DNA from: Candidatus Poribacteria bacterium
GTDB taxonomy: Bacteria > Abyssobacteria > SURF-5
Assembly: GCA_016215705.1 (NCBI GenBank)
Contig: JACRIR010000199.1
Coordinates: 1-48,479, forward strand
DNA length: 48,479 nt
Direction: 5' to 3'
The translations under genes were made by a program, and so were the position numbers. The notes under the pieces are model-generated. The model was not told the origin of the DNA, made no database searches, and worked only from the letters and a program-made list of their open reading frames with translations. Shown here in pieces: positions 2,415 through 44,119 of the stretch (the first letter of the stretch is position 1; each line of letters begins with the position of its first letter).

Positions 2415-2503
2415 CGTGAAAGAAACGCCCCATAATTCGGGGACACGATGCGATACTGCGTTTATTCGGGGACACCATGCGGCATGGTGTCCCCGAATAA
2501 ACG
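2415..2503. repeat. GGGGACAC-core palindrome plus an adjoining half-copy
   Basis: A perfect palindrome occupies 2459-2503: a 22-base left arm (2459-2480, starting CGTTTATTCGGGGACACC), one central G, and an exactly complementary right arm (2482-2503). A half-copy (AATTCGGGGACACGATGCG) lies just upstream at 2434-2452, preceded by CGTGAAAGAAACG at 2415-2427. It sits between the MBL gene and the Fe-S gene. Other copies: 13518-13661, 22627-22667, 23512-23550, 43768-43814. Confidence 0.9.
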
Positions 2504-2538
2504 CTGGTTTCCCATGGCCGTTGAAAGGAGTGACTGTA

Positions 2539-3546
2539 ATGTTTGAAAGAGCCAAATGCGATCTGTGCGGCGATTGCCTTGTGGCGTGCAAGTACAACAA
2601 TTATGACCGCCAAACCGCAATCGCGGGAATGACCGCCCTCATCGAGGGCCGGTCGACCGTCGTCGTGAAACAATGCGTCACGTGCGCCTCCTGCAACGAG
2701 GTCTGCGAGAAGGGGGCGAACCCGTTCGACCTTATCTGTGAAACACAGGAGAGGACGAACGCGCTCGAGTTGCCGGACGAAGTCATATCGATGTTCGACT
2801 ATATGTGCAAGGGCCGCAACGAAATCCGTGAGGGCGCGCCCGGCAGACCGGCCATCTCCTCATGCGTCATACGTGCGGCGCTGCCCAGACCGCTTGAAGG
2901 CTCACTTTTCGACGACCTCACCCACGTGCGCGGGCAAGACTACTTTTGCCACATCGGCTGGGTCCATCTCGGCAAGGCGAGCCCGATGGATAAGGGCATC
3001 CACTCGCTCATCAACAACCTCGCGGCGCTGGGAAAGAAGGAAATCGTGTTCGCTCACGACGACTGCTATGCTACCGCGACCACAAAGGCGAAGCAGTACG
3101 GAGTCAAGGTCCCGTTCCGCCCCATTCACATACTGGAATACCTGCGGGACGAAATGAAGAAACGGAAGGATGAGATAAAGAAGCTCGGCCTTAAGATCGC
3201 CTACCAGCGCCCCTGCGCCTCGCGTTATACGCCCGAAAAGGAGCCATTCGTCGATGAATTGTTGGACCTCATCGGGGTGAAACGAGTCGCCCGCAAGTAT
3301 GACCGCAAGAATGCCCTCTGCTGCGGGCTGCCTCTCATGTTCCGCGACATGAACAAGGGCATGGAGATTCAGAAGAAAAACCTTGACGACGCCAAAGGTT
3401 CCGGCGCCGAGGCGATGACGTTCCTGTGCCCCGTTTGCATCCGAGGCCTCGGCAGCGGCTGCGCCGAGCGAGGCCTCGACATTTATATGGTTAGCGACCT
3501 GTGCCGCCTCGCGCTCGGCGAGCGGATACCGGCCTATTCGGCATAA
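2539..3546 (+). CDS. Fe-S protein with two 4Fe-4S motifs and CCG (HdrB/HdrD-like) domain
   Basis: A 335-residue cytosolic redox protein. Two CX2CX2CX3C motifs, C7-C10-C13-C17 and C46-C49-C52-C56 (the latter followed by EKGANPFD), should bind two 4Fe-4S clusters. The C-terminal half carries CCG-domain elements: RPCASRY, then ALCCGLPL, then CPVC. This is the heterodisulfide-reductase/GlpC-like architecture, used to move electrons between ferredoxin-type carriers and a quinone, thiol or flavoprotein partner. The start at 2539 is chosen for AAAGGAG at 2524-2530; the longer frame from 2404 runs through the palindrome. No partner subunit is adjacent, so the electron acceptor is unknown. Confidence 0.85.
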   Translation: MFERAKCDLCGDCLVACKYNNYDRQTAIAGMTALIEGRSTVVVKQCVTCASCNEVCEKGANPFDLICETQERTNALELPDEVISMFDYMCKGRNEIREGAPGRPAISSCVIRAALPRPLEGSLFDDLTHVRGQDYFCHIGWVHLGKASPMDKGIHSLINNLAALGKKEIVFAHDDCYATATTKAKQYGVKVPFRPIHILEYLRDEMKKRKDEIKKLGLKIAYQRPCASRYTPEKEPFVDELLDLIGVKRVARKYDRKNALCCGLPLMFRDMNKGMEIQKKNLDDAKGSGAEAMTFLCPVCIRGLGSGCAERGLDIYMVSDLCRLALGERIPAYSA

Positions 3547-3621
3547 GATTGGGAAGACGAAAGGAAGCGAGAGAGAGTCCACAGCGTGGCGAAGCCTCAA
3601 CCAGTACAAACAACACATATC

Positions 3622-3690
3622 GGGCGCGATGAATCGCGCCCCTACAGCGTTTCTTGATTCATGCCCGTAGGGGCGCAATTCATTGCGCCC
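3622..3690. repeat. Two facing GTAGGGGCG-family palindromes
   Basis: GGGCGCGAT-GA-ATCGCGCCC then CTAC (3622-3645), a 21-base spacer, and GTAGGGGCGCAAT-TC-ATTGCGCCC (3667-3690). The units face each other, so the pair forms a larger inverted repeat, as bacterial REP/BIME units do. Confidence 0.8.
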
Positions 3691-3760
3691 ACGTGATTTC
3701 CATGCAAGGCGTCACCAAAAATCATGACACAAATTCAAGAAATTAAGCGTGAGTAGCACA

Positions 3761-3885
3761 GTTCACAGTCTACGGTCTGTGGTCTACAGTCCATAGTTTT
3801 TGACCGATCGGTTCTTGAAAGTGTGAACGGCAAGCTGGATAATTTGGAACTGTTCTTGTGAACCGTAAAACGTGAAGCGTAGACT
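3761..3885. repeat. Pair of short dispersed repeats
   Basis: GTTCACAGTCTACGGTCTG-type sequence at 3761-3796 and its inverse-orientation relative (GTGAACCGTAAAACGTGAAG) at 3858-3885. Confidence 0.45.
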
Positions 3886-3900
3886 GGCTTCGGAAACAGC

Positions 3901-3930
3901 TTGCATTTTTGTATCCGCTTGTAGTATACT
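3901..3930 (+). promoter_or_regulatory. Putative sigma-70 promoter of the rimP-nusA-infB operon
   Basis: TTGCAT (3901-3906), an 18-base spacer and TATACT (3925-3930). The -10 is good and the -35 weak. It would start RNA near 3937, just before the 3957-3982 hairpin. Confidence 0.45.
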
Positions 3931-3956
3931 AATTTAAGAAAGAGCCGCCAGGTAAG

Positions 3957-3983
3957 AAAGAGTGGGCAGCGACCCACTCTTTT
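3957..3983 (+). promoter_or_regulatory. Leader hairpin upstream of rimP
   Basis: AAAGAGTGGG (3957-3966), loop CAGCGA, CCCACTCTTT (3973-3982), then one further T: a perfect 10-bp stem. A structured leader upstream of rimP is known in other bacteria (Rfam rimP leader); equating this hairpin with it is inference. It could act as an early terminator/attenuator or a regulatory element. Confidence 0.55.
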
Positions 3984-4031
3984 GCATTGATAGGGCTGGC
4001 TCTCCAGCAGTGGCGGAAAGGAGATGAGGCG

Positions 4032-4057
4032 AAGGCGGCGTTTGCCGCCTTTGTTTT
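4032..4057 (+). terminator. Terminator-like hairpin (possible attenuator) before rimP
   Basis: AAGGCGGC (4032-4039), loop GTTT, GCCGCCTT (4044-4051), then TGTTTT. It lies about 45 bp before the rimP start, inside the presumed leader, so it would attenuate rather than end the operon. Confidence 0.5.
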
Positions 4058-4100
4058 GGGTATTGGTGTCAAAGGTTGAAGGAGCAAAGCAGCCGGACCT

Positions 4101-4568
4101 ATGGAATCAATCGCTGACAAGGTTCTGAAAACTGTGGAACCTGCTATCGAGGCCGAAGGTTATACCTTGGTGGACATGGAGTTAGGCCGGGAGGGCGGCC
4201 AGTGTATCTTGAGAATCTTCATTGATAAGGCCGAAGGCGGGATCACCCACGAAGATTGCGAAAGGGTCAGCACCCTCGTGAGTCCGATGCTGGACGTGGA
4301 AAACGTAATCGAGGAAAGGTATTTCCTTGAAGTCTCCTCTCCGGGTATCAACAGGCGAATAAAGAAGAAGGCGGATTTCGAGAGGTTCGCGGGAATGAAA
4401 GTCAAGATATTCCTGCGATCCCCGGTCGACGGACACAAGAAAGTCACCGGTATAATTGAATCCGTGGAGAGCGACGAAGTCGTCATTCGCAATGAAAAGG
4501 CGGGTTCGGAGAACGTGAAGCGGGTTCCGCTTGCGGCCATCGGCCGTGCGAACCTTCAGATACTGTAG
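4101..4568 (+). CDS. rimP: Ribosome maturation factor RimP
   Basis: A 155-residue protein of the RimP family, which helps assemble the 30S subunit and occurs just before nusA in most bacteria. The N-terminal alpha/beta domain has GREGGQCILRIFIDK and the family hallmark EVSSPGINR(R); the C-terminal SH3-like domain begins near KKVTGIIESV. Length is normal. It is the first gene of the operon, behind a promoter and two hairpins, and nusA follows after 38 bp. There is no strong Shine-Dalgarno; AGGAG lies some 20 bases upstream. Confidence 0.95.
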   Translation: MESIADKVLKTVEPAIEAEGYTLVDMELGREGGQCILRIFIDKAEGGITHEDCERVSTLVSPMLDVENVIEERYFLEVSSPGINRRIKKKADFERFAGMKVKIFLRSPVDGHKKVTGIIESVESDEVVIRNEKAGSENVKRVPLAAIGRANLQIL

Positions 4569-4606
4569 TCATAGTGAGCCCTGGAACTAACAGGAGGCGT
4601 TCCTAG

Positions 4607-5896
4607 ATGAAGGCAGATTTGATGCCGATTTTCGAGCAATTGCAAAGTGAGCGAAATATCGACAAAGGTGTGCTCATTGAAGCAATCCGCTCAGCTATAG
4701 AGATCGCCAGCAAGAAGAGCTTCTATAACTACGGCAACGTCGAGATCGACTTTGACGAAGAGAAGTGGGACTTCCGTGTATACCAGAAGAAAGATGTTGT
4801 CCAAAAGCCCGACAATTACAAGACGCAGATATCGCTCGAGGAAGCCCGCGCAATCAACTCCGGGGCCAAAATCGGAGACTCCCTACGTATCGAGATAGCA
4901 CCGGGCAACTTCGGCCGGATAGCCGCACAGACAGCCAAGCAGGTGATAATTCAAAAAATAAAAGAGGCCGAACGCAAGAACGTGGTCGCCGAATTCAAGA
5001 AGCGCGAGGGCGATATCCTGGCAGGAGTGGTCAAGAAGCAGGCGCACGGCAACGTAATAATCGACCTGGGCAGGGCCGAAGGGATTCTTCCCTTCAAGGA
5101 GCAATCGCCGCGCGACATCTACAGGTTCGGCGAGAGAATGAAGTTCTACGTGCTGGAAGTGGCCGAAAACGAGCGCGGACCGCAAATCGTTGTCTCGCGC
5201 TCGGCGCCGGAGATCGTTCGCCTTCTGTTCGAGATGGAAGTTCCAGAGATAGCGGATGGAATCGTCGAAATCCGCGCTATCGCGCGTGAAACCGGTTACA
5301 GGACCAAGGTCGCCGTCGTCTCACACGACGCAAATGTCGACGCGGTCGGCGCATGTGTCGGAATGAAAGGCATGCGCGTGCGCACGATTGTCGATGAACT
5401 CCGCGGCGAGAAGATAGACGTCATCAAATGGAGTTCGGACGTGAAGACGCTTATCGGCAACGCTTTGAGCCCGGCGATGATATCCAATATAATAATAGAC
5501 GAGAAACTCAAGAGCGTCCTCATTACCGTGACGCACGACCAGTTGTCGCTCGCCATAGGCAAACGCGGCCTGAACGCGCGCCTTGCCTCGAAGCTCACGG
5601 ACTGGAAAGTCGACATAATTGACGAAAAGAGGCTCAAGGAAGAAACGGCCCTGTTCGAAGAAGACATCATCGATGAGTTGATGGAACTTCCCGGCGTCGG
5701 CGAGAAAACCGCCCAGGTCCTCAGAGAAGCCGGCTATACCAGCACCCGGAAAATCGCCAACGCAACAGCGGATGACATCGCCTCCTTGCCCGGCATCGGC
5801 ACAAAGACCGCCGAAAAACTCATCGAGGCTGCCGCTGAACGACTAGCCTCGCTCGATGAAGAAGAGGAAGAGGGGGAGGATACACCCGATGAATAA
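4607..5896 (+). CDS. nusA: Transcription termination/antitermination factor NusA
   Basis: 429 residues in the usual order: N-terminal RNA-polymerase-binding domain (about 1-125), S1 domain (about 130-200; [20 protein letters not shown]), two KH domains (about 205-345; [15 protein letters not shown] and [13 protein letters not shown]), then helix-hairpin-helix segments ([11 protein letters not shown] and [11 protein letters not shown]) and an acidic tail. NusA binds elongating RNA polymerase and modulates pausing and termination. It replaces the E. coli acidic repeats with an HhH tail, as in several non-proteobacterial lineages. CAGGAGG (4591-4597) sets the start. The stop overlaps infB. Confidence 0.96.
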
Positions 5897-8351
5897 GGTT
5901 CGCGTTTTCGAGCTTGCCAAAGAAATAGGGCTCTCGAGCAAAGAGCTCATGGCGAAACTCCAGGAACTCGGTTTTGCCATCACCTCCCATATGTCAACCC
6001 TTGAGGAAAAAGAGATCAAGCTAATTACGAAGAAATTCGGCTACATCCGAGTCGAGAAAAAGGTCGAGGCCAAGAAAGCCAGACCCGGTAAAGAACGAAA
6101 AGAAAAGAAAGAGGAAAAGGAAGCCGAGCGGATCATCGAAGAAAGAGCGGGCAAGAAGAAGGAAGAGCCGGCCCCAAAAGAAGAACCCTCGCCGCCGGCG
6201 CCGCCTGAAGCCCCCGCTCGAGAGGCCGCTGTAAGCGAGCCGCTCCCCGCTGCCGCCACCGCCGTAGCCGAACCGCCGATGGTCAAAGCGCCTGAAATAG
6301 TCGCGCCGGCAGCCAAAGTTGTTGAGGAGGAGGAGGAGGAGGAGGAGGAGGAGATAGAAGAAGAAGGTCCTCCGCCGATCACGGCGCCGCCGGAAGCGGA
6401 AACGGGCGCCCTGGAGGATGAGACCGAGCTGCTCCTGGAGGAAAAGCGGCGACTTGAATGGAGAACGCGACGACGCGACAAAAGAAAACGCAAGCGCGAA
6501 CGCGAGAAAGAGCGCCTCAAGAAACTTGAAGAGCAAAAGGTTGTGGAACAAGCGCCGCCGTCCGAGCGGTTGCTGAGGAGAAAGGCGCGCGGTCCGCGAA
6601 GGCCCATCATCACCGTGGACGAGGTGATAACGGTCGATGAGTTGGCAAAGAACCTTAAGATCAAGGCGTCAGCCCTCATTCTCGAGCTCATGCAAATGAA
6701 TATTATGGCGACGAAAAACCAGCCGCTCGAGCTCGAAGTGGTAACTCAAATAGCCGAGAAGTATGGCCACGACGTTCACGTGGCGACATCTATCGAGGAA
6801 ACTCTTGAAGAAAGAGAGGAAGAAGAAGCGCCCGAGAACCTCAAGCCTCGCGCCCCGGTCGTTACCGTCATGGGACACGTTGACCACGGCAAAACGGCAT
6901 TGCTTGACGCCATTCGCCAGACCCATGTAATGGAGAAGGAGGCCGGCGGAATCACACAGCACATCGGAGCATACGACGTCAAGCTCGAGAAAGGGCACGT
7001 GGTGTTTCTCGACACCCCCGGACACGAGGCGTTCACCGCAATGCGCGCTCACGGCGCTCAGGTGACCGACGTGGTTGTTCTTGTCGTCGCCGCCGACGAC
7101 GGAATCATGCCCCAGACAGTCGAGGCGATAAACCATGCGCGCGCCGCAGGCGTTCCGATGGTAATCGCTCTCAACAAGATTGACAAACCTACCGCCAACG
7201 TGGACCGCGTAAAGCAGCAACTCGCAAAACTTGACCTGCTGCCGGAGGATTGGGGCGGCAAGACGATAACGGTGCCCGTTTCGGCAAAGTCCAAGACCGG
7301 AATCAAGGAACTCCTGGAGATGCTGCTCCTCGAGGCGGAACTCCTGGAGCTCAAGGCCAACCCGAGCAAACCCGCCCGTGGCATCGTTCTTGAGGCCGAA
7401 CTCGACAGGGGCCGCGGCGCCGTAGCTACGGTTCTCGTTCAGGGCGGAACGCTTCACGTAGGGGATGCGTTTGTCGCGGGCTCACAATATGGCAAGGTGC
7501 GCGCGCTTCTGAACGACAAGGGCGAGGCCCTCACCGATGCCGGTCCGTCCATACCGGTGGAGGTTCTCGGTTTCACAGGGGTGCCGCAAGCGGGTGATGC
7601 CTTCATCACGGTCGAAGACGAGAAGAAGGCCAGGCAGATCGCCGATGTCCGCGCATTGAAACAGCGCCAAAAGGAAATGATACAGCGAAAGCGCATCACG
7701 CTTGAGGAATTGTACGAACAAATACAGGCGGGCGAGATCAAAGAACTCAACGTCATTGTCAAGGGCGACGTTCAGGGCTCGGTTGGGGCGCTGCAAGACT
7801 CCTTGCAGAAGCTTCCGACGGACAATGTCAAACTCAAGGTGATACACGCCGGAGTGGGCGGAATAAACGAATCCGACGTTATCCTCGCTTCCGCCTCGAA
7901 CGCTCTCCTCCTGGGATTCAATGTCAGACCCGACGCCAAGGCGCGCGAGCTCGCGCAGCAGGAAGGAGTCGATTACAGGCTCTACCGGGTGATCTACGAT
8001 GTGATAGACGACGTGAAAGCGGCAATGGAAGGACTGCTCGAACCGGAGAAGCGAGAAGTCTTTCTGGGCCGCTGTGAAATAATCAAGACTTTCAAGGTCG
8101 GGTCAGTCGGAGCGATTGCCGGCTGCCGGGTGGACGAAGGCGAAATCGTGAACAACCAGAAGATCAGACTTGTTCGCGATGGAATCATAATTTATGACGG
8201 CAAAATATCTTCTCTGAAGCGGTATAAGGATTTTGTCAAGAGCGCGCAGGCCGGGACAGAGTGTGGAATCGGTCTCGAGAACTACAACGACGCCAAGGTC
8301 GGCGACACGCTCGAGTGCTACCGCATCGAGGAGATTGCGCGAAAACTCTGA
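5889..8351 (+). CDS. infB: Translation initiation factor IF-2
   Basis: An 820-residue GTPase that delivers initiator fMet-tRNA to the 30S subunit. Residues 1-50 form a first IF2_N domain; residues about 50-230 are a charged, Pro/Ala-rich linker with ten consecutive GAG Glu codons (6324-6353); a second IF2_N-like domain follows (about 235-290). The G domain starts at M328 with GHVDHGKT (329-336), then [12 protein letters not shown] and SAKSKTG; domains II-IV complete the protein. The chosen ATG (5889) overlaps the nusA stop by 8 bases and has GGGGGAGG upstream; the in-frame ATG at 5856 lies inside nusA and gives a non-family N-terminus. Confidence 0.96.
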
Positions 8352-8354
8352 TAC

Positions 8355-8636
8355 ATGTTTGTAGGCATTCTACAGATTGAGCTCCTCCTCAGGGGAAACA
8401 CCTCGCTGAAGGGAAAGCGACAGATACTCAAGAGCGTCAAGGACAGGGTTCGCCACAAATTCAATGTTTCGATCGCCGAGATCGACAACAACGACCTCTG
8501 GCAACGCTCGACATTGGGCATTTGTTGCGTATCCAATGACAAGACGCATACAAATCGTATGCTTTCCGAAGTCGTCAATTTCATCGAGACCAACTCAGCG
8601 GCGGAACTCCTGGATTACAGTATCGAGATACTTTAG
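8355..8636 (+). CDS. ylxP: DUF503 (YlxP-like) protein
   Basis: A 93-residue protein of the DUF503/YlxP family, recognisable by the N-terminal LLLRGNTSLKGKRQILKS segment and by its place between infB and rbfA, as in Bacillus and many other bacteria. YlxP proteins are small alpha/beta proteins suspected to act in ribosome assembly or RNA metabolism; no enzymatic role is established. It starts 3 bp after the infB stop, so translational coupling is likely. Full length. Confidence 0.9.
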   Translation: MFVGILQIELLLRGNTSLKGKRQILKSVKDRVRHKFNVSIAEIDNNDLWQRSTLGICCVSNDKTHTNRMLSEVVNFIETNSAAELLDYSIEIL

Positions 8637-8640
8637 TGTC

Positions 8641-8695: not shown

Positions 8696-8724
8696 GGGGA
8701 AAACTTGATGGTGGATGATGACCT

Positions 8725-13321: not shown

Positions 13322-13727
13322 GCTTGCTCACGGCACGACGGGAAAAGGACTCCTCCTCTTCCCTGCCTTGGTTCTTGTCCAATCCCAGAAAAAAGGTTCT
13401 TGGTTCCAAGTTCCTGGTTCCCGGCTAAATTCATCCAAGAAACCGAGTTTGACAGCGTGGCATTCTTTCATTCTCTCAAAGGTGAGAATGCGGGTGCATG
13501 TGCCGCGAGAGTCCGGCTTATTCGGGAATACGGTGCGGCATGGCCTATCCGGGAACACGACGCGGCACGGCCTATCCGGGAACACGACGCGGCATGGCTT
13601 ATTCGGGGACACGACGCGGCTTATTCGGGGACACGATGTCGCATCGTGTCCCCGAATAAGCATACTGCACTCAGACTGAAGTCCGGAGCATTGGTTTTAC
13701 AGCTTTCTGTAATCGAGGATCATTCCC
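13322..13727. other. Gene-free repeat region between secG and murA
   Basis: No gene seen; all open frames are products of the repeats. It holds a GGTTCTTGGTTCC-type phrase repeat (about 13395-13428) and the half-palindrome array (13518-13661). GAGGA at 13714-13718 serves as the murA ribosome site. Confidence 0.6.
13518..13661. repeat. Tandem array of GGGGACAC half-copies ending in a full palindrome
   Basis: Five units in a row: 13518-13544 (27 bp, starts TTATTCGGGAATACGG), 13545-13571 and 13572-13598 (27 bp each, CTATCCGGGAACACGACGCG, differing at one base), 13599-13620 (22 bp) and a full palindrome in 13619-13661 with 20-base complementary arms around TCG. There are no unique spacers between units. 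Confidence 0.85.
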
Positions 13728-14984
13728 ATGGACGCCTTCATAATTCGCGGAAGTCGGGCCCTTAAGGGGAAAGTCAAGGTCCGGGGAGCGAAGAACGCCG
13801 TACTCCCCATCATGGCTGCCGCATTATTGACCGACGAACGTTGCACGATTGAAAATATTCCCACGCTGCGCGATATCGTCACCATGGGCAAGGTGCTCAA
13901 GCATCTGGGCATGGCGATAGAGGACAACGGCAACGGCGCGCTCGTGGTCGACAGCAGCGGACTAGCGAATCATATCGCCCCATACGAATTGGTGCGGACG
14001 ATGCGCGCGTCGGTTCTGGTCATGGGACCGCTCCTGGCAAGACTTGGAAAAGCCAAGGTGGCCCTGCCGGGCGGCTGCGCCATCGGGCTCCGTCCGATAG
14101 ATATCCACCTTAAAGGTCTTGAGGCGCTGGGCGCCAAGATAAAGATAGGCCGGGGTTACGTCGAGGTATCTGGCAAGAAGCTGCACGGCGCCGAAATCCG
14201 CCTCTCATATCCGAGTGTGGGCGCAACGGAAAACCTGATTATGGCGGCCGCGCTCGCCGGCGGGAAGACAGTCATCGATAATGCCGCGCGCGAACCCGAG
14301 ATACAGGACCTGGCTAAATTCCTGCGGTCGCTCGGCGCAAAGATTGAGGGTGAAGGGACATCGAGGATTTCCATAGAAGGCGTGCAGCGCCTCGGCTCGG
14401 CGACGCACTGCGTGACGCCCGACAGAATAGAAGCCGGCACATACCTGGCCGCGGGCGCGATAACCGGCGGGCGTGTCACGGTCGAGGGTGTGGTCGAGGA
14501 ACACTTGAAGCCGGTCTCCTTGAAACTTGCGGAGGCGGGGGTAAACATCGAGGTCGATGGGTCTTCAATAACCGCCTCGATACCCGGACGCATGCGTCCG
14601 TTGAATATCCGGACAATGCCTTATCCGGGTTTTCCGACGGATATGCAAGCGCAGTTCATGGCTTTGATGACCGTCACCCCCGGAATCAGCTCGATAACTG
14701 AAACGGTTTTTGAGAACCGGTTTATGCAAGTGGCCGAACTCAACCGGATGGGGGCCGACATCCGGATCGAACACAACACTGCGATCATTAACGGCGTCAA
14801 TAACCTTTCGGGCGCCGAGGTGATGGCATCGGACCTGCGCGCCAGCGCCGCGCTCGTGCTCGCCGGCCTGGTCGCCCGCGGTGAAACCCATATCTCGCGG
14901 ATTTATCATATCGACAGAGGATACGAGCAGATCGAGTGTAAGTTGAGAGACCTCGGGGCCGACATCGAACGGGTGAAAGAATAG
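13728..14984 (+). CDS. murA: UDP-N-acetylglucosamine 1-carboxyvinyltransferase
   Basis: 418 residues; catalyses the first committed step of peptidoglycan synthesis, enolpyruvyl transfer from PEP to UDP-GlcNAc. The N-terminus has KVKVRGAKNAVLPIMAAALL; C117, in PGGCAIGLRPIDIH, is the loop cysteine alkylated by fosfomycin. PSVGATENLIMAAALA, PGFPTDMQAQFMAL and the C-terminal RASAALVLAGLVARGET are also family segments. Full length. hisD begins 52 bp later, an arrangement seen in several phyla where murA heads a his gene group. Confidence 0.97.
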   Translation: MDAFIIRGSRALKGKVKVRGAKNAVLPIMAAALLTDERCTIENIPTLRDIVTMGKVLKHLGMAIEDNGNGALVVDSSGLANHIAPYELVRTMRASVLVMGPLLARLGKAKVALPGGCAIGLRPIDIHLKGLEALGAKIKIGRGYVEVSGKKLHGAEIRLSYPSVGATENLIMAAALAGGKTVIDNAAREPEIQDLAKFLRSLGAKIEGEGTSRISIEGVQRLGSATHCVTPDRIEAGTYLAAGAITGGRVTVEGVVEEHLKPVSLKLAEAGVNIEVDGSSITASIPGRMRPLNIRTMPYPGFPTDMQAQFMALMTVTPGISSITETVFENRFMQVAELNRMGADIRIEHNTAIINGVNNLSGAEVMASDLRASAALVLAGLVARGETHISRIYHIDRGYEQIECKLRDLGADIERVKE

Positions 14985-22065: not shown

Positions 22066-22530
22066 TTACTCCAATATCTCGAGCAGGTCCAGCCTTTGTG
22101 CCTTGAATTTTACGATATCGCCCACCTTGAAGGCGGACACATCTCCATCCGGAATGACGTAGAGATCACCAACCCCGGCGTTGACGAGGAGATCATGGTC
22201 CCTCTCGTTGACCTCCAGGATTTTCGCAATCATGGTCACAGCGGAAGGCTCTTCGCTTACCGGGTCAGATTCGATGTCCAGCAGCCCCACCTTCCCTGAC
22301 TCAAGCACTGCCACCTGTCCGTCGATGAAGGGGACACAAAGAATTATCTTCTTGTTCTTGCCCAGCCTCGATTCTGTGACGGCAAACCCCATGAAATCGA
22401 ACAATCGGATGAGGGCTCCGTCACTAGTCCTCACTTCGACTGTCTGTTCATAGGACATTCCGTCAAGCTTGCAGCGGGACTTGAACGAAAGAATCTCTAC
22501 TTCTGTGAAATGCGTATTGTCCAGGCGCAT
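22066..22530 (-). CDS. Hypothetical protein, beta-rich
   Basis: A 154-residue protein I do not recognise. The pattern of alternating hydrophobic residues (TVEVRTSDGALIRLF, KIILCVPFIDGQVAVLES, GDIVKFKAQRLDLLEIL) suggests a beta-barrel or OB-like soluble protein; there is no signal peptide or membrane segment. It has two cysteines and no catalytic motif. The start is uncertain because no clear ribosome site precedes the ATG at 22530. It lies between the VOC gene and the amidohydrolase on the same strand, 132 bp before the latter. Coding nature is supported by length and even composition. Confidence 0.65.
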   Translation of the reverse strand: MRLDNTHFTEVEILSFKSRCKLDGMSYEQTVEVRTSDGALIRLFDFMGFAVTESRLGKNKKIILCVPFIDGQVAVLESGKVGLLDIESDPVSEEPSAVTMIAKILEVNERDHDLLVNAGVGDLYVIPDGDVSAFKVGDIVKFKAQRLDLLEILE

Positions 22531-22607: not shown

Positions 22608-22729
22608 GTGCCAGAACCAGATGTGTGAAAAGTGGGGACACGATGCCGCATCGTGTCCCCACTTTTCTGCGGTAGGTCTCCGATACGACATCGGCGCCGA
22701 AAAACAACTTGACAAGATGTTTCTGGCAC
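22608..22729. repeat. MITE-like unit: terminal GTGCCAGAA inverted repeats around a GGGGACAC palindrome
   Basis: GTGCCAGAA (22608-22616) and TTCTGGCAC (22721-22729) flank a perfect palindrome with 19-base arms (22627-22645 and 22649-22667) around CCG. The palindrome's ends are GAAAAGTGGGG and CCCCACTTTTC, unlike the TTATTC ends of other copies, and would make a bidirectional terminator with A and T tracts. Confidence 0.7.
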
Positions 22730-22735: not shown

Positions 22736-23314
22736 CTATCCCTCCAATGCTTTCATCAGGTCTTTCAAAAGGTCTTTGATTTCCTCTTTGGTTAAGGATA
22801 ACTTGAGTTCGACGCCGCCGGGGTGATGAACGCTAAGCTCATAGCCGGTTTCATTTGATTGAATTCGCCAGCGTTTCCCTTGGGGGCGTTTTACCGGCTC
22901 GATGAGATGATATTTCGGGCCAAACTGACAAATCTGGATGAGTACCCCAAAGGTGTCTTTAGGGTGGATGAAGAGTTCCGACCAGAGCTCCGGGATTTCA
23001 TTGAATCCGAAATATGGGACCTTGTTCTCTTCCAGTCGCCTTTTTGCCTCGTGAATATCTGCTGTTTCGAGGGTGATATGGTGGATGCCTCCCTCTCGCG
23101 TTTTCAAGAAATTCGCGAGGAAACTGGGTTCTCCGGAAGGTGTGATTAGTTCCATCCTGGACATATCGCCGAGCGTAAATATGTGCCACAGGTAATTCAG
23201 GTTCGAGTCTTCCATCGAGGCAACCGACACTGCGCCGAGCACTTTTTCCAGAAAGGCCTTTGCGGTTTCATAGTTCTTGACGGCGATCCCGACATGATCG
23301 ATTCTGGCAATCAT
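22736..23314 (-). CDS. VOC-family protein (glyoxalase/epimerase-like)
   Basis: 192 residues of the vicinal-oxygen-chelate fold. The first beta-alpha-beta unit starts IARIDHVGIAVKNYE, and GGIHHITLETADI begins the second; its order resembles methylmalonyl-CoA epimerase. The last metal ligand, usually Glu in VLIE, reads GVLIQICQ, so metal binding may be altered. A C-terminal extension of about 60 residues is basic and amphipathic, ending in KEEIKDLLKDLMKALEG. The ATG follows AGGAGAG on the minus strand. The reaction cannot be assigned. Confidence 0.78.
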   Translation of the reverse strand: MIARIDHVGIAVKNYETAKAFLEKVLGAVSVASMEDSNLNYLWHIFTLGDMSRMELITPSGEPSFLANFLKTREGGIHHITLETADIHEAKRRLEENKVPYFGFNEIPELWSELFIHPKDTFGVLIQICQFGPKYHLIEPVKRPQGKRWRIQSNETGYELSVHHPGGVELKLSLTKEEIKDLLKDLMKALEG

Positions 23315-23511: not shown

Positions 23512-23550
23512 CTATTCGGGGACACCGTGCCGCGTGGTATCCCTGATCAG
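23512..23550. repeat. Degenerate GGGGACAC palindrome
   Basis: CTATTCGGGGACACCGTG, CCG, CGTGGTATCCCTGATCAG. The right arm has decayed: several positions no longer pair. Confidence 0.65.
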
Positions 23551-35667: not shown

Positions 35668-35701
35668 CTCGTGCCTCCGTCTGCTACCCCGGGGTAGAGC
35701 T

Positions 35702-36883: not shown

Positions 36884-36893
36884 TTTCATTTCC

Positions 36894-37922
36894 TCACTCG
36901 TTAGGGTCCACCAAAACCTTTATCGCCTCGCCCCTGCGCATTGCGTCCACACCCTTATGAATCTCTCTCAATTTGAACCGGTGAGTCACGAGACTCTTCA
37001 GATTGAGCCGGCCACTCTCGAGGAGAGAAACCGTTGCGGGGAACGTGGCATTCGCGATAAAGCTGCCGATAATCTCTATTTCATTGCGCGTAATGTCGTT
37101 CTGCCGTATCTCGGCCATAGCTCTGCTGTTCATCCCGAAGAGAAGCACTCTGCCACCCTTGCGGGCCGATGCGACGGCTTCCTTCATCAGGGCGCCTACC
37201 GCGTCGATCACAATATCCGCGCCGACACCGGTCCTGGCCCGGACGATTTCCTCAAGCTGTGTATCACCCCGGCTAATGACCTCAGTGGCGCCCATCTTCC
37301 GCGCCATGCGAGCACGTTTGGAATTGGGTTCGCTTACAAGTATTTCCTTCAGTCCCGCCATACGAAGGATGCTTACGAAATACAGGCCGATGGGGCCCGC
37401 TCCAAGCACCAGCGCAGACTCGCCGGGCAAAGGCTTCAGCTTCCGGATTCCGTTCAGCACGCACGACAGCGGCTCCGCAAATATCGCTTCCTCGAGAGGA
37501 GTCTCTTTCGAGATGGCAAAAAGGGCGTCGCACGGCGCGAGATTGTATTCCGCGAATCCGCCATCGATGAAAATCCCGAGCGTGGTCATGTTCTCACACA
37601 TGTTTGGCAGCGCTTTTCGACAGTAAGCACAGAAGCCGCACGCGAGATTCGGATTGACAACCACCCTATCGCCTTTCTTGAGATGGGTCACGCCGTTGCC
37701 TGCGTCGATAACCTCTCCGACGTATTCATGGCCCAGAATTGTCGCCGCATTCGCAGGATGTCCGGGCGGAACCGAAAGGATGTGAACGTCCGTTCCACAG
37801 ACGCTTGCGACCTCGATTCTCAGTAAGACGTCTTTCTCACGGCTAACTGCGGGGACGGGTTTCTTGCGCAACTGCAACACGCCATTGCCCTCAAAGACTG
37901 CGGCCACCATTTGTTTTTTCAT
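36894..37922 (-). CDS. Zinc-dependent alcohol/polyol dehydrogenase
   Basis: 342-residue MDR enzyme of the threonine dehydrogenase/sorbitol dehydrogenase type. Zinc sites: VCGTDVHIL and LGHEYVGEVIDAG; structural cysteines NLACGFCAYCRKALPNMC; Rossmann motif LVLGAGPIGLYF; C-terminal LVTHRFKLREIHKGVDAM. NAD(P)-dependent oxidation of a secondary alcohol is expected. Start 37922 follows AAGGAAG on the minus strand. It is the first gene of the three-gene unit behind a perfect sigma-70 promoter. Which polyol it uses is unknown. Confidence 0.92.
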   Translation of the reverse strand: MKKQMVAAVFEGNGVLQLRKKPVPAVSREKDVLLRIEVASVCGTDVHILSVPPGHPANAATILGHEYVGEVIDAGNGVTHLKKGDRVVVNPNLACGFCAYCRKALPNMCENMTTLGIFIDGGFAEYNLAPCDALFAISKETPLEEAIFAEPLSCVLNGIRKLKPLPGESALVLGAGPIGLYFVSILRMAGLKEILVSEPNSKRARMARKMGATEVISRGDTQLEEIVRARTGVGADIVIDAVGALMKEAVASARKGGRVLLFGMNSRAMAEIRQNDITRNEIEIIGSFIANATFPATVSLLESGRLNLKSLVTHRFKLREIHKGVDAMRRGEAIKVLVDPNE

Positions 37923-38017
37923 GCTTGTCTTCCTTCTGCCCGGAGAAAACGCCTGATCTTGAGATTATTCCGCAATTGCGCGTTTGTTTCAGGCTTCTTT
38001 GTCCCCAAACGACCCGA

Positions 38018-38046
38018 ATTATACTTCAAGGGAACAGCGGTGTCAA
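38018..38046 (-). promoter_or_regulatory. Perfect sigma-70 promoter for the dehydrogenase/acyl-CoA synthetase unit
   Basis: On the minus strand TTGACA (38046-38041), a 17-base spacer and TATAAT (38023-38018). Both boxes are exact consensus. RNA would start near 38012, giving a leader of about 90 bases. A divergent promoter lies at 38135-38164. Confidence 0.75.
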
Positions 38047-38113
38047 ACGGGCGCCACCAGCCGTAACCATGTGTAATTGTGAGCAGACACTCCCGACCGA
38101 ATAGAAGTTGCAC

Positions 38114-38126
38114 GTGAAAGAAACGG
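38114..38126. repeat. CGTGAAAGAAACG motif shared with palindrome flanks
   Basis: Identical to 2415-2427 beside the first palindrome and one mismatch from the complement of 43816-43828 beside another. No palindrome is present here, so it may be a relic or chance. Confidence 0.3.
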
Positions 38127-38134
38127 AGGCGGGT

Positions 38135-38164
38135 TGATAGAGAAAACTCTTCAATGCTATAATC
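38135..38164 (+). promoter_or_regulatory. Putative promoter of the second YfhO-like gene
   Basis: TTGATA (38135-38140), 18-base spacer, TGC plus TATAAT (38159-38164), extended -10. RNA start near 38171, leader of about 40 bases. Confidence 0.6.
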
Positions 38165-38211
38165 GCGCGCATGAGTTCAGGACAGCCGCCTCAAGATGGA
38201 GCGGGAACACC

Positions 38212-40776
38212 ATGCGCATAGAGCGTCGAGATCTCGTCGTTTCGGCGTTTCTCGCAGTCCTCGTTCTTGCTTTCTTTCACAATGCCCTTTTGCGAGGAGA
38301 GCAGTTTTACGCGGGGGACACGTATAGGTTCTTCTATCCGCTGAAAAGAATGGCTGCGGACCTCGTGCGCAGCGGCGAAGCTCCCTTATGGAATCCGCTG
38401 GTTCACAGCGGCGCGCCGCTTCATGCAGCCCTCCAGTCGGCGGTTTTCTATCCTTTCTCGGTCCTGTTCTATTTCTTTCCTTTCGACTTTGCGTTCAAAT
38501 GGTATATCGCCTTGCACGTGCTGCTAGCTGCCCTAGCGACCTATTTTCTCATGCGTCGATGGCAATTGGACCGCCTCCCTGCTTTTGCGGCAGCCATAAC
38601 CTATGCGTTCAGCGGATACCTGATTTCATTCATCGACGGTCTCAACATTTTTTCCTCAATTGCATGGCTTCCGCTTGTGTTTGCAGCCTTCGAGAGCGCG
38701 GTGGAACAATCCGGAGTCGCATCTGTTTCGCTTGCGTCACTTGCGGTGGCGGCCCAAACTCTGGCGGGAGACCCCGTGAGCGGCTACTGCACGTTCTTGA
38801 TATGCGGCGCATATTGGCTGATTCTGATAGGGGTCTCCGCCTTCAGTCACAGGCCGCGCGCGGAAACCTCCATCAAGTTCTCAGTCTTGCCGATGATAGC
38901 AATCCTGGCTTTTTTTCTCTCTTATGTCCAGATCGGCCCCTCACAAGAATTTGCTCAGAATTCCACACGGTCGGTGGCGATAAGCTATGACAGCGCCACA
39001 CAATACTCACTTGCGCCACAGCGCCTGCTCACGCTGATTGCGCCGTACCTGTTCGGGAATCCCATAGAAAACGTCGCCGATTGGGGCCGGATTTTTTCCC
39101 CTCGCTTTCCGTTGGAGCGCACTCTGTACGTCGGCGCCATGCCGCTTGCGCTCATGATGATTGCGGTAGCCGCTTTCAGGGAGAGACGCGTCTATTTTTT
39201 TGCCGGCGTCTTCGTTGTGAGCCTTTTGCTGTCATTAGGCAGGAACACACCCATATATCATATTCCATACCGCATCCTGCCCGTATTCGCCATGTTTCGG
39301 TATCCGGTGAAGTTTTTCTTTGCGACTACATTCGCTACGTCGGTGCTTTGCGGATACGGTCTGCAATATCTGACGGAGGGAAACGCCGGCGGAACCCATC
39401 GGCTGAGAGCATCAGCGGAGATATTTACGAAGCGTTTCTCGGCCTTTCTTGCAGCAACAGCCGTCACATGGCTTGTGTTTGCGGCATGTGACAGGTTTCT
39501 GGTAGATGTGACGGGCGGTCTCTTATTAAGGTTTTCCTCTGTAGACGCTCAATTCACTCACCAGTTTATTCCCTACATGAAAAAGCAAGCATTTCAAGCG
39601 GCCGTCGTATTTGCGCTCCTTGGCGCGGGCCTCCGGGCATACAAGAAAGGGTTCTTTTCGCGGAATTTCTTCAAAATCTTCGTCGCGGCTTTTCTTATTC
39701 TGGATTTGTTGCCCGTAAGCTACCGCGCAATGGACACGACACATGAATCGTTCTACTCCGCTCCACGTATTGACTCGACGCTGCGGGCCGATGGCGAAAT
39801 GTTCCGACTCTATCGAACTCCTATCGATATGGAACAGCATCTGGATAACCTTCCGATAAGGACGGCAGCGGACTATTACCTGTGGAACCGGGAAATTCTG
39901 TCACCGAATTTCGGAACGCTTTTCGGATACGCCTACACCGACGGGTACGACAGCGCAAATCTGCTCTGGCATAACCTGTTTCTCAGGTTTGTTGAAGGGT
40001 CGCCTCCGCTTGTCAGACCCCGCTTGCTCGGCCTGTTGAATGTCAAGTATATTTTCTCCTCACACCCCCTAAATCATCCTGACCTGATTCTCAGGAACTC
40101 GCTATCAGGCAATGTGTTCTTGTACGAAAACGTCCGCTGTCTAGAGCGAGCATACTTCGTTCCGAATTCGATTGTGGCATCGAGCGAATCCGTTGCGTTG
40201 AGGGTGCTGGCTTCCAACGGCTTCGAGCCGAAGACCGCGGTAGTGCTGGTTGACAAGGGCGGTCCGGGATCGCTCAACCCCGGGAAAGGCGCCGCTGGTT
40301 TTGACGTGTCCATGCCGAAGGATTTCAAGTACCAAACGATGAACGTGTCCGACGAACCATCAGGCGTACTCCCGCACGGACCCTCGATCGGACGGCCTGA
40401 CAGACCTTCAAATAAGTCTCACCTCGAACTCTTGCATGGAATGGCTGAAATGCCGGCGCCCCTTGCGCCGGTAAGAATCGAGAGTTACGGGCCGAATTCG
40501 GTTGTTCTCTCAGTCAATGCTCCATATGCAGGTTATGTCGTCCTATGTGACGCATACTATCCCAATTGGAAAGCACGCATAAATGGGTTAAGCGTAAAGG
40601 TGTTGCGGGCCAATTGTACGGTGCGGGCGATTCCTGTTAAGGCGGGCAACAGCATCATCGAATTTGCTTACGATAAGGACTCCTTCCATCGGGCGGCGAT
40701 AGTCAGCGCGGTAACAATTGCAGTGTGCGTGGCGGGCATTGTCGTGCGCCGGCGGATGAGCGGTAAGCGCGCATGA
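38212..40776 (+). CDS. YfhO-like membrane protein
   Basis: 854 residues. About 13 membrane segments make the first two thirds; the rest is soluble. The first loop carries FYAGDTYRFFYPLKRMAADL and APLWNPLVHSGAP, a YfhO signature near the entrance to the GT-C active site, and the C-terminal DAYYPNWKARINGL is shared with the 26083-28620 protein. Start 38212 follows GGAG by about 10 bases and the promoter by 48; the frame from 38134 lies upstream of the RNA start. Likely transfers a polyprenyl-linked sugar outside the membrane (inferred). Confidence 0.83.
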   Translation: MRIERRDLVVSAFLAVLVLAFFHNALLRGEQFYAGDTYRFFYPLKRMAADLVRSGEAPLWNPLVHSGAPLHAALQSAVFYPFSVLFYFFPFDFAFKWYIALHVLLAALATYFLMRRWQLDRLPAFAAAITYAFSGYLISFIDGLNIFSSIAWLPLVFAAFESAVEQSGVASVSLASLAVAAQTLAGDPVSGYCTFLICGAYWLILIGVSAFSHRPRAETSIKFSVLPMIAILAFFLSYVQIGPSQEFAQNSTRSVAISYDSATQYSLAPQRLLTLIAPYLFGNPIENVADWGRIFSPRFPLERTLYVGAMPLALMMIAVAAFRERRVYFFAGVFVVSLLLSLGRNTPIYHIPYRILPVFAMFRYPVKFFFATTFATSVLCGYGLQYLTEGNAGGTHRLRASAEIFTKRFSAFLAATAVTWLVFAACDRFLVDVTGGLLLRFSSVDAQFTHQFIPYMKKQAFQAAVVFALLGAGLRAYKKGFFSRNFFKIFVAAFLILDLLPVSYRAMDTTHESFYSAPRIDSTLRADGEMFRLYRTPIDMEQHLDNLPIRTAADYYLWNREILSPNFGTLFGYAYTDGYDSANLLWHNLFLRFVEGSPPLVRPRLLGLLNVKYIFSSHPLNHPDLILRNSLSGNVFLYENVRCLERAYFVPNSIVASSESVALRVLASNGFEPKTAVVLVDKGGPGSLNPGKGAAGFDVSMPKDFKYQTMNVSDEPSGVLPHGPSIGRPDRPSNKSHLELLHGMAEMPAPLAPVRIESYGPNSVVLSVNAPYAGYVVLCDAYYPNWKARINGLSVKVLRANCTVRAIPVKAGNSIIEFAYDKDSFHRAAIVSAVTIAVCVAGIVVRRRMSGKRA

Positions 40777-40791
40777 GATTCCTCATGCAGA

Positions 40792-41928
40792 TCATATTTC
40801 CTTGAATTCGATGATTGCGTTCACGATGCGGTCCAAGTCAGTCTCATTCAGCTTGTTGTAAAACGGCAGGCGCAGCAGTCTGGCGCTAACATCCTCTGTT
40901 ATCGGACAACCCCCTTCTTTCCCTCCATAGCGTCTCCCCATATCCGACAGATGCAGAGGCAGATAATGGAAAACAGCGTGAATCCCGCGTCTTTTCAAGT
41001 GCGCAATCAAGGCCTGGCGACTTTCGAGCGACGGCAGAAGAATATAGAACATGTGGAACGGATGCTCGCAATGCGACGGTATAAAAGGAAGTCGAACACC
41101 GTGTTCCTTTGCCCAGGCCAGGAGATTCTTGCAGTAATACTCCCATATTCGGCGGCGAGAGGACTGAATCTGGTTTCGAGCTTCGAGCTGAGCATACAAG
41201 AACGCCGCGAGAATGTCAGTGGGCAAATAGCTCGACCCGATATCGACCCACGTGTATTTGTCTATTTCCCCGCGAAAGAATCGGCTGCGGTTTGTGCCCT
41301 TCTCCCTCAGAATTTCCGCCCGCTCGACGTACTGTGGGTCGTTAATGACCAAGGCGCCGCCTTCACCACACGTGAAGTTCTTCGTCTCATGAAAGCTCTG
41401 TGCGGCGAGGCAACCGAATGTTCCGAGAAATCGCCCCCGGTATTTGCCCAATAGTCCGTGTGCGTTGTCCTCGACGACATGAACGCCGGAACGTCCGGCG
41501 ACCTGAGAAATGACATCCATCTCACAACCCACACCCGCATAGTGCACGGGCACAATCGCCTTCGTCCGCGAAGTTATGAATTGCTCCAGTAGTCTCTCGT
41601 CCAGATTGAGGGTGTCCGGCCGAATATCGACAAAGACCGGCCGCGCGCCGCGAAGTACGAAGGCGTTAACCGTGGAGACAAAGGTAAAGGAAGGGATGAT
41701 TATCTCATCGCCCGGCCCAACATCCAGGAGGAGCGCGGCCATCTCGAGGGCGTGAGTGCCCGAGGTGGTGAGCAGAGCTTTCCTCGCCCCGAGCAACTCC
41801 TCCAGCAGCGCATGGCACTTCCGTGTGAAAGGTCCGTCACCGGAGATGTGCGAGTTGGCAAGGGCTTGCCGGACACAGTCCAGTTCCGTCCCAACGACAA
41901 AAGCGCGGTTAAAAGGGATATCGGACAT
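40792..41928 (-). CDS. wecE: dTDP-4-amino-4,6-dideoxygalactose transaminase (WecE-like)
   Basis: 378-residue PLP enzyme of the DegT/DnrJ/EryC1 sugar aminotransferases. Cofactor residues are D154 in VVEDNAHG and the Schiff-base K183 in FHETKNFTCGEGGALV; TTSGTHALEM and PSFTFVSTVNAF are also typical. ETKNFTCGEGGA fits WecE/RffA, which converts dTDP-4-keto-6-deoxyglucose to dTDP-Fuc4N. The start at 41928 (MSDIPFNRAF) matches the family; a TTG at 41940 is possible. It is third in a minus-strand run with a GNAT enzyme and a GT2, but the acceptor keto-sugar could differ. Confidence 0.88.
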   Translation of the reverse strand: MSDIPFNRAFVVGTELDCVRQALANSHISGDGPFTRKCHALLEELLGARKALLTTSGTHALEMAALLLDVGPGDEIIIPSFTFVSTVNAFVLRGARPVFVDIRPDTLNLDERLLEQFITSRTKAIVPVHYAGVGCEMDVISQVAGRSGVHVVEDNAHGLLGKYRGRFLGTFGCLAAQSFHETKNFTCGEGGALVINDPQYVERAEILREKGTNRSRFFRGEIDKYTWVDIGSSYLPTDILAAFLYAQLEARNQIQSSRRRIWEYYCKNLLAWAKEHGVRLPFIPSHCEHPFHMFYILLPSLESRQALIAHLKRRGIHAVFHYLPLHLSDMGRRYGGKEGGCPITEDVSARLLRLPFYNKLNETDLDRIVNAIIEFKEI

Positions 41929-41982
41929 TGGTAGTCTCAATATCTGTTCGCGACAACAGGCAAATAATGGCCATTGTGATTC

Positions 41983-42732
41983 TCATGGCGCATCAAACCA
42001 CTTGTGGAACGTGTAGTACGAATGACCCGGCTCAAAACCCATGCGGGTCCAAACCTTTTGAGCGAGGAGATTGGTTACCTGAGTGGACATGGTCATTCTC
42101 TGCGCCCCTTTCAGTCGGCACCATAGCATTGCATGGACCATGAGCAAACCGGCAACGCCCTGTCTTTGAAATCGGGGAGCCACCGCCCACAAAGGGCCTT
42201 CGCCTTCCGCAGGGCTGCTGAGCCGCAACGTGATAAAGCCTGCAACCGACGCATTGGATTCGGCCACCAGCACTTCATCTGCGACTTTTCGGGAAACGCA
42301 GGACCGAACCGCCCACGAGATGTACACCGCGTCACAACCGGCGCGTCCTAATCTGGCATCTGAATGATAATGTCCTTTATATCCGCGAAACGACTCAGCA
42401 GCAACTCTCTCTATGTCGTTCTCTTGTCCGGGTACGAATGGGTGTATGGTCATTGTCGTCGTGTCTCGCAAAACCGGAATCTCAGTGAGTTTCCGCGAGT
42501 AGAAAACGAGGGTATCCATAAGATGGAATCCCTCTTGTTCCATTGCATGGACCGCCGCCATGTCGTCCGTTGGACAACGGGCGATAAGAAAGATAACGGC
42601 ATTTGCGCGGCAAAAGTCCAACACCGACGGCAATGTATCGACGGTTATGTGCGGCGCCCGCGCAGCACGGATGTCGAAGCGCTCTTCGTCAATATCGGAG
42701 AGATACACGTTCGGCGGGGTGGAGCCTTTCAT
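41983..42732 (-). CDS. GNAT N-acetyltransferase, probably amino-sugar acetylating
   Basis: 249 residues. The C-terminal GNAT domain has AESFRGYKGHYHSDARLG, CDAVYISWAVRSC, WAVAPRFQRQGVAGLLM (acetyl-CoA site) and TQVTNLLAQKVWTRMGF. The GHYHSD and STQVTN features are those of acetyltransferases paired with WecE, which make dTDP-Fuc4NAc. The N-terminal 80 residues are family-specific. The stop of the GT2 gene overlaps this start (ATGA), and wecE starts 54 bp downstream, so an operon is likely. Confidence 0.83.
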   Translation of the reverse strand: MKGSTPPNVYLSDIDEERFDIRAARAPHITVDTLPSVLDFCRANAVIFLIARCPTDDMAAVHAMEQEGFHLMDTLVFYSRKLTEIPVLRDTTTMTIHPFVPGQENDIERVAAESFRGYKGHYHSDARLGRAGCDAVYISWAVRSCVSRKVADEVLVAESNASVAGFITLRLSSPAEGEGPLWAVAPRFQRQGVAGLLMVHAMLWCRLKGAQRMTMSTQVTNLLAQKVWTRMGFEPGHSYYTFHKWFDAP

Positions 42733-43673
42733 GCGCGTTCCTCAGCGCCAGGGTGGAAGCCTACAGTTTCCCGGATGACACTCGACGGTCGCCTCATCGA
42801 GAGAAAGTGCATCCGCGCCAGGTACTCTCCTATGATTCCAAGCGCAAACAATTGGGCCCCCGAAAAAATAGCGATGATCGAGGCGAGGAAAGGAAAACCC
42901 GGCACGCTTCCGCCCTGTATGAAATAGCGTCCTGTCACGTAGGCCAGCACCAATACTCCGAAGAAAGTAAAGAAAAAGCCGACCAGACTCGCCAGGCGCA
43001 GTGGCATCGTGCTGAAGCCGGTTATCATGTTGAGAGCGTGCGCGCAAAGTCTGCGGAAAGTATAGTTCGACGCGCCATAGCGGCGGAGATCATGAGAGAG
43101 CGGAATAGCCGCAAAACGGGTTGTACCCCAGCAGAGCAGCACGTCGATCGAAACAAATGGCCCCTGATAGGCCGCGAAAGAATCGCGCAACTGGGTCCGC
43201 AACACGCGAAAAGCGCTGACCTGTCGAGCGATATCGATGTCCATTGCGCTCTGCAAAGTCAATTTGGTGAACTGTGAGGCCAGGTTCCTCCACAGGCCGT
43301 GCCGTTCCGTTGCAGGCGTTCCGTAGACTACATCATAGTCCGTGCCGAGTTTATCAATCAGTTTCGGAATTTCCTCCGGCGGATGTTGCAGGTCGTCATC
43401 CATCGTGACAGTGATTTCGTATCTTGCATTGCGTATGCCGCAAAGTAGTGCGTTATGCTGGCCGTAGTTGCGCATGAGGTTGATCCCTCGAATCCATGTG
43501 TGCCGCATAGCAAGATTGCGGATCACCTCCCAACTCTGATCGCGGCTTCCATCGTTGACCAGGATCAACTCGGACGTGTCGGCCAGGGATTCCAGAACAG
43601 GTTTTAGACGCTCCACCAGAGGGGGCAGGGAAGACGCGCTGTTGTAAACGGGCACGATCACAGAGAGGTCCAT
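42729..43673 (-). CDS. GT2 glycosyltransferase (polyprenyl-phosphate type)
   Basis: 314 residues. The GT-A domain starts LSVIVPVYNSASSLPPLVE, with the DXD region TMDDDLQHPPEEIPK and PLSHDLRRYGASNYTFRRL; two C-terminal membrane segments lie at about 231-256 and 266-291. This is the ArnC/GtrB-type that moves a sugar from a nucleotide donor to undecaprenyl phosphate. It heads the minus-strand unit with the GNAT and transaminase genes, and the sugar could be the Fuc4NAc product (inferred). AAAGG lies 7 bases before the ATG. Confidence 0.9.
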   Translation of the reverse strand: MDLSVIVPVYNSASSLPPLVERLKPVLESLADTSELILVNDGSRDQSWEVIRNLAMRHTWIRGINLMRNYGQHNALLCGIRNARYEITVTMDDDLQHPPEEIPKLIDKLGTDYDVVYGTPATERHGLWRNLASQFTKLTLQSAMDIDIARQVSAFRVLRTQLRDSFAAYQGPFVSIDVLLCWGTTRFAAIPLSHDLRRYGASNYTFRRLCAHALNMITGFSTMPLRLASLVGFFFTFFGVLVLAYVTGRYFIQGGSVPGFPFLASIIAIFSGAQLFALGIIGEYLARMHFLSMRRPSSVIRETVGFHPGAEERA

Positions 43674-44119
43674 TACCGACCTTTCCCCGTCGCATTACTC
43701 TCAATCAGTTATGAAAAGCTGCTTGCGACTCAGTCGAGCAAGTTTCCTAAGAAGTCGGCGACTGTTTCCCTTAATTCGGGGACACCATGCGGCATGGTGT
43801 CCCCGAATTAAGGGTCGTTTCTTCCACGATTGACCGCTGTACGGAGGCGGTCATGCGCTTCTAATGAAAGGGCTTACAGGCCCGTCGTTCCCCGGGGGCT
43901 ACCATGTGACAAGATATCCCCAACAAAGGACGGCGCAAGCGTGATTATGATAGCAGAAAGAACCTTATACTTCAATCATTGGAAGACCGCTCTGCCTTTG
44001 AGGTCCCACTTCTCATTGTCATGTTACACTTGAGTTTGTGAGCACAGGCGCATGTTCCTGCAGGGGCATAATCCCGCTCCCTCCTCACGGGAACCAACAA
44101 GACAGAATCGACGGAACAC
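43674..44119. other. Gene-free region with a large palindrome
   Basis: 446 bases between GT2 and GH2. Holds the palindrome 43768-43814 and TGACCGC/GCGGTCA inverted arms (43831-43837, 43847-43853). No gene seen. Confidence 0.55.
43768..43814. repeat. Perfect GGGGACAC-core palindrome, 23-base arms
   Basis: Left arm 43768-43790 (CCCTTAATTCGGGGACACC then ATGC), central G, exactly complementary right arm 43792-43814. It is followed by CGTTTCTTCCACG (43816-43828), whose complement nearly equals the left flank of the first copy at 2415-2427. Confidence 0.92.

Follow-up and report, generated by a model that had tools for sequence, protein, structure and literature searches.

TIRYTs are Y1 transposases whose terminal inverted repeats (TIRs) contain the motif GGGGWSAS (Di Nocera et al. 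2013, PMC3733652), and they were later placed mainly in subclass 2.1 of TnpA-Y1 (Quentin et al. 2018, PMC6006769). Published TIR families are moderately abundant (PMC3733652). For the double-foot REPs, Quentin et al. suggested that they arose when the center of an inverted REP dimer was deleted (PMC6006769). We analyzed contig JACRIR010000199.1 of a Candidatus Poribacteria bacterium (GCA_016215705.1), 48,479 nt in length and hereafter called the window, in which a first-pass annotation had described palindromes sharing a core, GGGGACAC, and had likened them to REP elements mobilized by RAYT transposases. We read these palindromes as transposase-less inverted TIR dimers, or miniature TIRtrons. 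The full proposal, in which the halves of such TIRYT-type elements are kept matched by template switching and the elements are mobilized in trans by a TIRYT, is given a probability of about 0.55.

A large family with variable, paired arms

The palindromes were confirmed to form a real, large family. A whole-genome search for GGGGACAC and GTGTCCCC separated by 11 nt returned 277 or 279 perfect copies, depending on slightly different spacer ranges, and 0 copies of the reversed control pattern. In the window, GGGGACAC occurred 14 times compared to 1.0 expected. The palindromes were analyzed in detail in a 2.06-Mb sample of the 5.47-Mb genome, the assembly of which is fragmented and 92% complete. 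The sample contained 142 copies with a perfect core and 231 copies at 3 or fewer mismatches, compared to 18 in reversed sequence, which suggests a total of approximately 450 copies when decayed ones are included. The spacer was 11 nt in 92 of 94 copies from an earlier sample.

Each of the arm positions -8 to -1 was paired in 82-99% of the perfect-core copies of the 2.06-Mb sample, and positions -8 and -7 used all four bases and were still paired. All 6 arm bases examined were paired in 116 of the 142 copies, compared to 18.6 (maximum 33) when whole arms were swapped between copies. For 187 distinct copies and 20 position pairs, 94.7% of cells were Watson-Crick; shuffling the 3' letters within columns, a control that leaves copy relatedness in, gave a mean of 77.0% and a maximum of 78.3%, and sliding the partner gave 31-34%. 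Changes on both sides were found in 10 position pairs, 537 cells in all. When the arm AAAAT was held fixed, position -1 used all four Watson-Crick pairs (30, 5, 5, and 4), indicating that the changes do not arise mainly via wobble pairs. The arms in the sample therefore behave as the first-pass annotation had described for the window, differing between copies yet pairing within each, and the copies are neither few nor unpaired.

The arm consensus beside the core was WWAWTC, and there were 44 distinct fully paired 7-mers. Among 138 arms, the commonest were GAAAATC (24), TTAATTC (19), and CTTATTC (19), followed by TTTATTC (11) and CTAATTC (7); approximately 30 types were seen once. Arms and cores reassorted, with the TAATTC and TTATTC arms each occurring with CA, CT, and GA cores and both halves matching. 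GAAAAT arms were nearly always found with GA cores (55 of 59). Full palindromes were often preceded by tandem truncated half-units, consisting of an arm and the 5' half of the core, in which the arm was usually that of the palindrome (L037, L055, L067, and position 13597 of the window) and sometimes another (position 2429). Other palindromic words were also present in high copy number in an 880-kb sample of this genome: GGCGCGCCGTGCCC (32), CCCCCTTTGCAAAG (31), CGCAATGAATTGCG (25), and GCGAATGAATTCGC (12).

Relationship to Y1 transposases and mobility

The core GGGGACAC matches GGGGWSAS as GGGG-W(A)-S(C)-A-S(C). Neither a GTAG nor a GTGG foot was found in positions -12 to -1 or in the core, and membership in the GTAG REPs was rejected because this foot is missing, although copy number is high and location is extragenic. 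The earlier comparison with REPs and RAYTs was thus right in pointing to a mobile, mostly intergenic family tied to Y1/HuH (RAYT-type) transposases and wrong as to the subfamily; the anatomy, as we read it, is an inverted TIR dimer with a GGGGWSAS-type core and not a single REP hairpin. The papers retrieved by searching the literature for the letters GGGGACAC were all unrelated.

Three Y1_Tnp matches were found in the genome, on contigs C225 and C28, and none on the window contig (C132), in agreement with the earlier statement that the window has no RAYT gene. C28 carries two tandem TIRYT-like genes (L006/L007, 1-2430) of approximately 218 aa each with NHVH and YVERNP motifs, which score above the cut-off for Y1_Tnp and, at 55.9 bits, below the cut-off of 80 for the REP-associated transposase model. 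The second, complete gene has TTATTCCGGGGACATAATACC inverted on both sides; the left end of the first gene is lost at the contig end. This TIR is related, not identical, to the palindrome half, and GGGGACAT departs from GGGGWSAS at its last base. Three further copies of TTATTCCGGGGACATAATACC, on C85, C99, and C244, are apparently solo or remnant ends. The Y1 transposase on C225 (L005, 56-1030; 324 aa) is of the REP type and has a DnaA-like C-terminal domain. That contig starts with CGGGGTCAGGTCTTGAAATTTGAATTAA, a different GGGG-type repeat, and GGGGTCAGGTCTTG occurred 5 times in 880 kb.

The near flanks of 81 transposase genes, comprising 80 relatives from many phyla and the C28 gene, were surveyed. 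GGGGAC or GGGACR was present on at least one side of 74 genes and on both sides of 61, usually preceded by AT-rich arms, and an Elusimicrobia gene (L092) carries AATTCCGGGGACACCATACGG, nearly the half-unit of the window palindrome at 43768. Because of the motif match, the C28 TIRs, and these flanks, the simplest anatomy for the palindromes is a TIRtron cut down to its two ends, placed head to head. A genome outside the family to which that of the window belongs (G041; L160, L161) had 19 Y1_Tnp matches and 7 related palindromes (GGGGACACCATNNGNATGGTGTCCCC), and its gene L160 had ATTTTGGGGACACCATAC-type flanks.

A survey of 386 genomes found any palindrome match in only four, the genome of the window included. 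Two related genera had one palindrome each, with different centers, compared to 277 in this genome. One Elusimicrobia genome had the identical 27-mer GGGGACACCTTGCCGCAAGGTGTCCCC once, with unmatched arms (L251, 1501-1527), located inside an open reading frame (ORF) resembling 3-hydroxyacyl-CoA dehydrogenase. A recent insertion was found in a gene for a membrane/TPR protein (L171, 3121-5616), where a TTAATC-class palindrome lies within a 37-aa in-frame insertion that is missing from the orthologs in two related genera. Because this insertion exceeds the palindrome in length and takes in some of a mosaic flank, it does not reveal the origin of the arms. L171 was the one genic copy for which orthologous empty sites were usable; relatives of the gamma-glutamyltransferase-like gene L032 were only 31-42% identical and therefore uninformative. 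These observations also bear on whether the palindromes are binding sites of a protein, such as a regulator or nucleoid organizer, that reads the symmetric GGGGACAC...GTGTCCCC site. Such a protein could account for the symmetric core and its constant length, but variable yet matched arms, tandem half-units, copies within genes, near absence from related genera, and the presence of the same 27-mer in another phylum all fit a mobile element better, and we consider binding sites very improbable.

Genomic context and maintenance of pairing

Copy location was scored against gene calls from a home-made hexamer model. Of 210 scorable copies, 193 (92%) were intergenic, compared to 14% of random positions. 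The claim that all copies are intergenic held for the five palindromes of the window and failed as a rule for the family, as 17 of the 210 overlapped a called ORF; some copies were located just upstream of ribosome-binding sites. Convergent spacers were favored over divergent ones when all copies were considered (39 vs 18, p=3e-8). This excess was due to the GAAAAT class (26 vs 3, p=2e-10), the other classes being unbiased (13 vs 15). The GAAAAT class has a TTTT end on both strands and the other classes have no U tract. Concentration of the GAAAAT class in convergent spacers is as expected of bidirectional terminators.

A function in RNA, with the palindromes serving as bidirectional terminators or 3' mRNA stabilizers and pairing selected on the RNA hairpin, would agree with the mostly intergenic location and with the U tracts and orientation of the GAAAAT class. 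However, a terminator role for the whole family was rejected because neither feature extends beyond that class. G.U did not exceed A.C among transcription-oriented mismatches (69 vs 57, p=0.33), no Rfam family matched in the window, and the copies inside ORFs or just upstream of ribosome-binding sites also count against such a function. We therefore regard an RNA-level function as unlikely.

Compensatory changes are commonly regarded as proving that structure is under selection. Some palindromes lie inside copies of another dispersed repeat of approximately 200 bp, which also exists empty, and these allowed copies of one insertion to be compared. In 13 copies of this host repeat, with the palindrome center excluded, divergence from the consensus was 18/494 positions in the palindrome compared to 79/728 in the flanks (p=2.5e-6). 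Among paralogs of one insertion, L025 and L210 had changed both arms together, and L014 and L229, in related contexts, had AATG/CATT in place of AATC/GATT. The palindrome center was inverted in L012. One-sided arm changes were also present (L211, L224, L197). In two reports, template switching between the arms of inverted repeats has arm homogenization or two-sided change, together with spacer inversion, as its signature (PMC8604942, PMC8794818); two-sided changes and center inversion were both seen between these paralogs. The reassortment of arms and cores while the halves match is easiest to understand if one half is written from the other. The best explanation for the matched arms acts at the level of DNA, with one half being copied in inverted form onto the other; selection for a hairpin substrate may act alongside. 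The earlier suggestion that pairing is maintained by selection or by the copying mechanism was, in our judgment, correct.

Selection could also act by itself on the same TIR-dimer element, if copies with a full hairpin were the ones recognized and multiplied and if arm types were subfamilies copied whole. The action of HuH transposases on hairpins (background knowledge; PMC6006769), the dominance of a few arm types (24, 19, and 19 of 138), and the near confinement of GAAAAT arms to GA cores are consistent with this explanation; the singleton arm types, the symmetric reassortment, and the paralogs of a single insertion changed on both sides, for which re-transposition is unnecessary, argue against it. 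We consider selection alone to be possible but doubtful.

From these comparisons of sequence, we infer that a TIRYT mobilizes the palindromes and that template switching causes the pairing. The palindrome would be a non-autonomous miniature element made of two head-to-head TIRs of a TIRYT-type Y1/HuH transposon from which the transposase gene is missing, and the evolving unit would be one half, composed of a variable AT-rich arm, GGGGACAC, and SATG or CTTG. During replication of the folded single strand, a template switch within the hairpin could copy one half onto the other as its inverse. A mutation in one arm would thereby be written into the other, and full palindromes would form and stay perfect. 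A TIRYT such as those encoded on C28 probably acts in trans to mobilize the palindromes as single-stranded DNA hairpins, and pairing would then be under selection as well.

A more specific version, which we offer tentatively and with clearly less confidence, is that the heritable unit is the half-palindrome, from which the other half is generated during insertion or, afterwards, by template switching. If at insertion, one arm would resemble the native target and the other would be its inverse copy. At one host-repeat junction, the arm AGAAAATC is similar to native AAGAAATC on just one side, and a target-arm resemblance was found at a second junction as well (L183, 1537); two junctions are too few to establish arm origin, and we treat them as a lead. 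If one half does template the other, each copy would make its own matched arms, pairing would need no compensatory selection, and the element would be a self-rewriting mobile hairpin.

Several results weigh against the proposal of TIR dimers mobilized by a TIRYT and matched by template switching. The resident TIR TTATTCCGGGGACATAATACC was found only 6 times in the genome. The 92%-complete assembly yielded no transposase gene flanked by exactly this palindrome, the kind of gene that the first-pass annotation had proposed to look for, and the C28 genes carry a related TIR instead. We rejected the expectation that such palindromes would occur wherever a genome has a GGGGACAC-type TIRYT, as 1 of 16 such genomes had one, in a single copy. 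Few compensated changes were seen in paralogs, and the same pattern could result from selection or from gene conversion by other copies. Finally, the arms are a constrained set (WWAWTC), which is not predicted by simple templating alone.

Palindromes of the window and comparison with known systems

The coordinates reported earlier for five palindromes were all reproduced, including the decayed state of the copy at 23512; two truncated half-copies had been missed.

Table 1. Palindromes and half-units in the window.
Feature	Position (nt)	Strand	Sequence	Context
Truncated half-unit	2429..2458 (approx.)	+	CCCATAATTCGGGGACACGATGCGATACTG; different arm, CCCATAATTC GGGGACACGATGCGATACTG	Abuts palindrome 2459..2503
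Full palindrome	2459..2503	none	Arm CGTTTATTC, core GGGGACAC-CATG	Within 5' leader of Fe-S/CCG-domain gene (2539-3546 +)
Truncated half-unit	13597..13618 (approx.)	+	GCTTATTCGGGGACACGACGCG; same arm type as palindrome 13619..13661	Adjoins palindrome 13619..13661
Full palindrome	13619..13661	none	Arm GCTTATTC, core GGGGACAC-GATG	Upstream of EPSP synthase gene (13728-14984 +)
Full palindrome	22627..22667	none	Arm GAAAAGT, core GGGGACAC-GATG	Between two minus-strand genes (22066-22530 and 22736-23314)
Decayed palindrome copy	23512..23550	none	26/39 positions still match own reverse complement	
Full palindrome	43768..43814	none	Arm CCCTTAATTC, core GGGGACAC-CATG	Mosaic flanks typical of its class: GGCGACTGTTTC left, GTTTCTTCCAC right

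The four good copies paired completely except for a 3-nt center and folded as DNA hairpins at -22.0 to -26.2 kcal/mol (z -9.8 to -11.2), compared to -5.7 kcal/mol (z -1.1) for the decayed copy. At approximately 3580-3736, the window also has a second dispersed repeat (GGGCGCGATGAATCGCGCCCCTACAG...CTGTAGGGGCGCAATTCATTGCGCCC) in an empty copy; elsewhere in the genome, this repeat carries the palindrome.

With approximately 44 distinct, exactly matched 7-nt arms, this one genome offers a natural test of whether DNA copying keeps hairpins perfect. The family is also a large dispersed repeat set for the little-studied TIRYT transposases, whose activity, to our knowledge, has never been demonstrated.

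Template-switch hairpins and inverted repeats (PMC8794818, PMC8604942, PMC7202029) appear to resemble the present family in two-sided changes, homogenized arms, and spacer inversion; those reports concern hairpins in RNA, inverted repeats in coding sequence, and a mutational assay, and not a TIR family dispersed in a bacterial genome. GTAG REPs, BIMEs, and REPINs with their RAYTs (Nunvar 2010, PMC2817692; Bertels and Rainey 2011, PMC3116915) are likewise short, mobile, mostly extragenic palindromes that form tandem mosaics and are linked to Y1 transposases, but the palindromes here have no GT(A/G)G foot and are symmetric dimers, in contrast to the single REP hairpin and its unpaired foot. Double-foot REPs of subclass 2.4 (PMC6006769) share symmetric ends, and their suggested origin by central deletion parallels the one proposed here for TIR dimers; theirs, however, are GT[AG]G feet and belong to another transposase subclass. 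The TIRs of TIRtrons and TIRYTs (PMC3733652; PMC6006769) share GGGGWSAS and dispersed single, dimeric, or clustered copies, and they flank Y1 genes, as a related TIR does on C28. In contrast to those TIRs, nearly all copies here are exact head-to-head dimers, present in the hundreds in one genome, each with its own matched arms.

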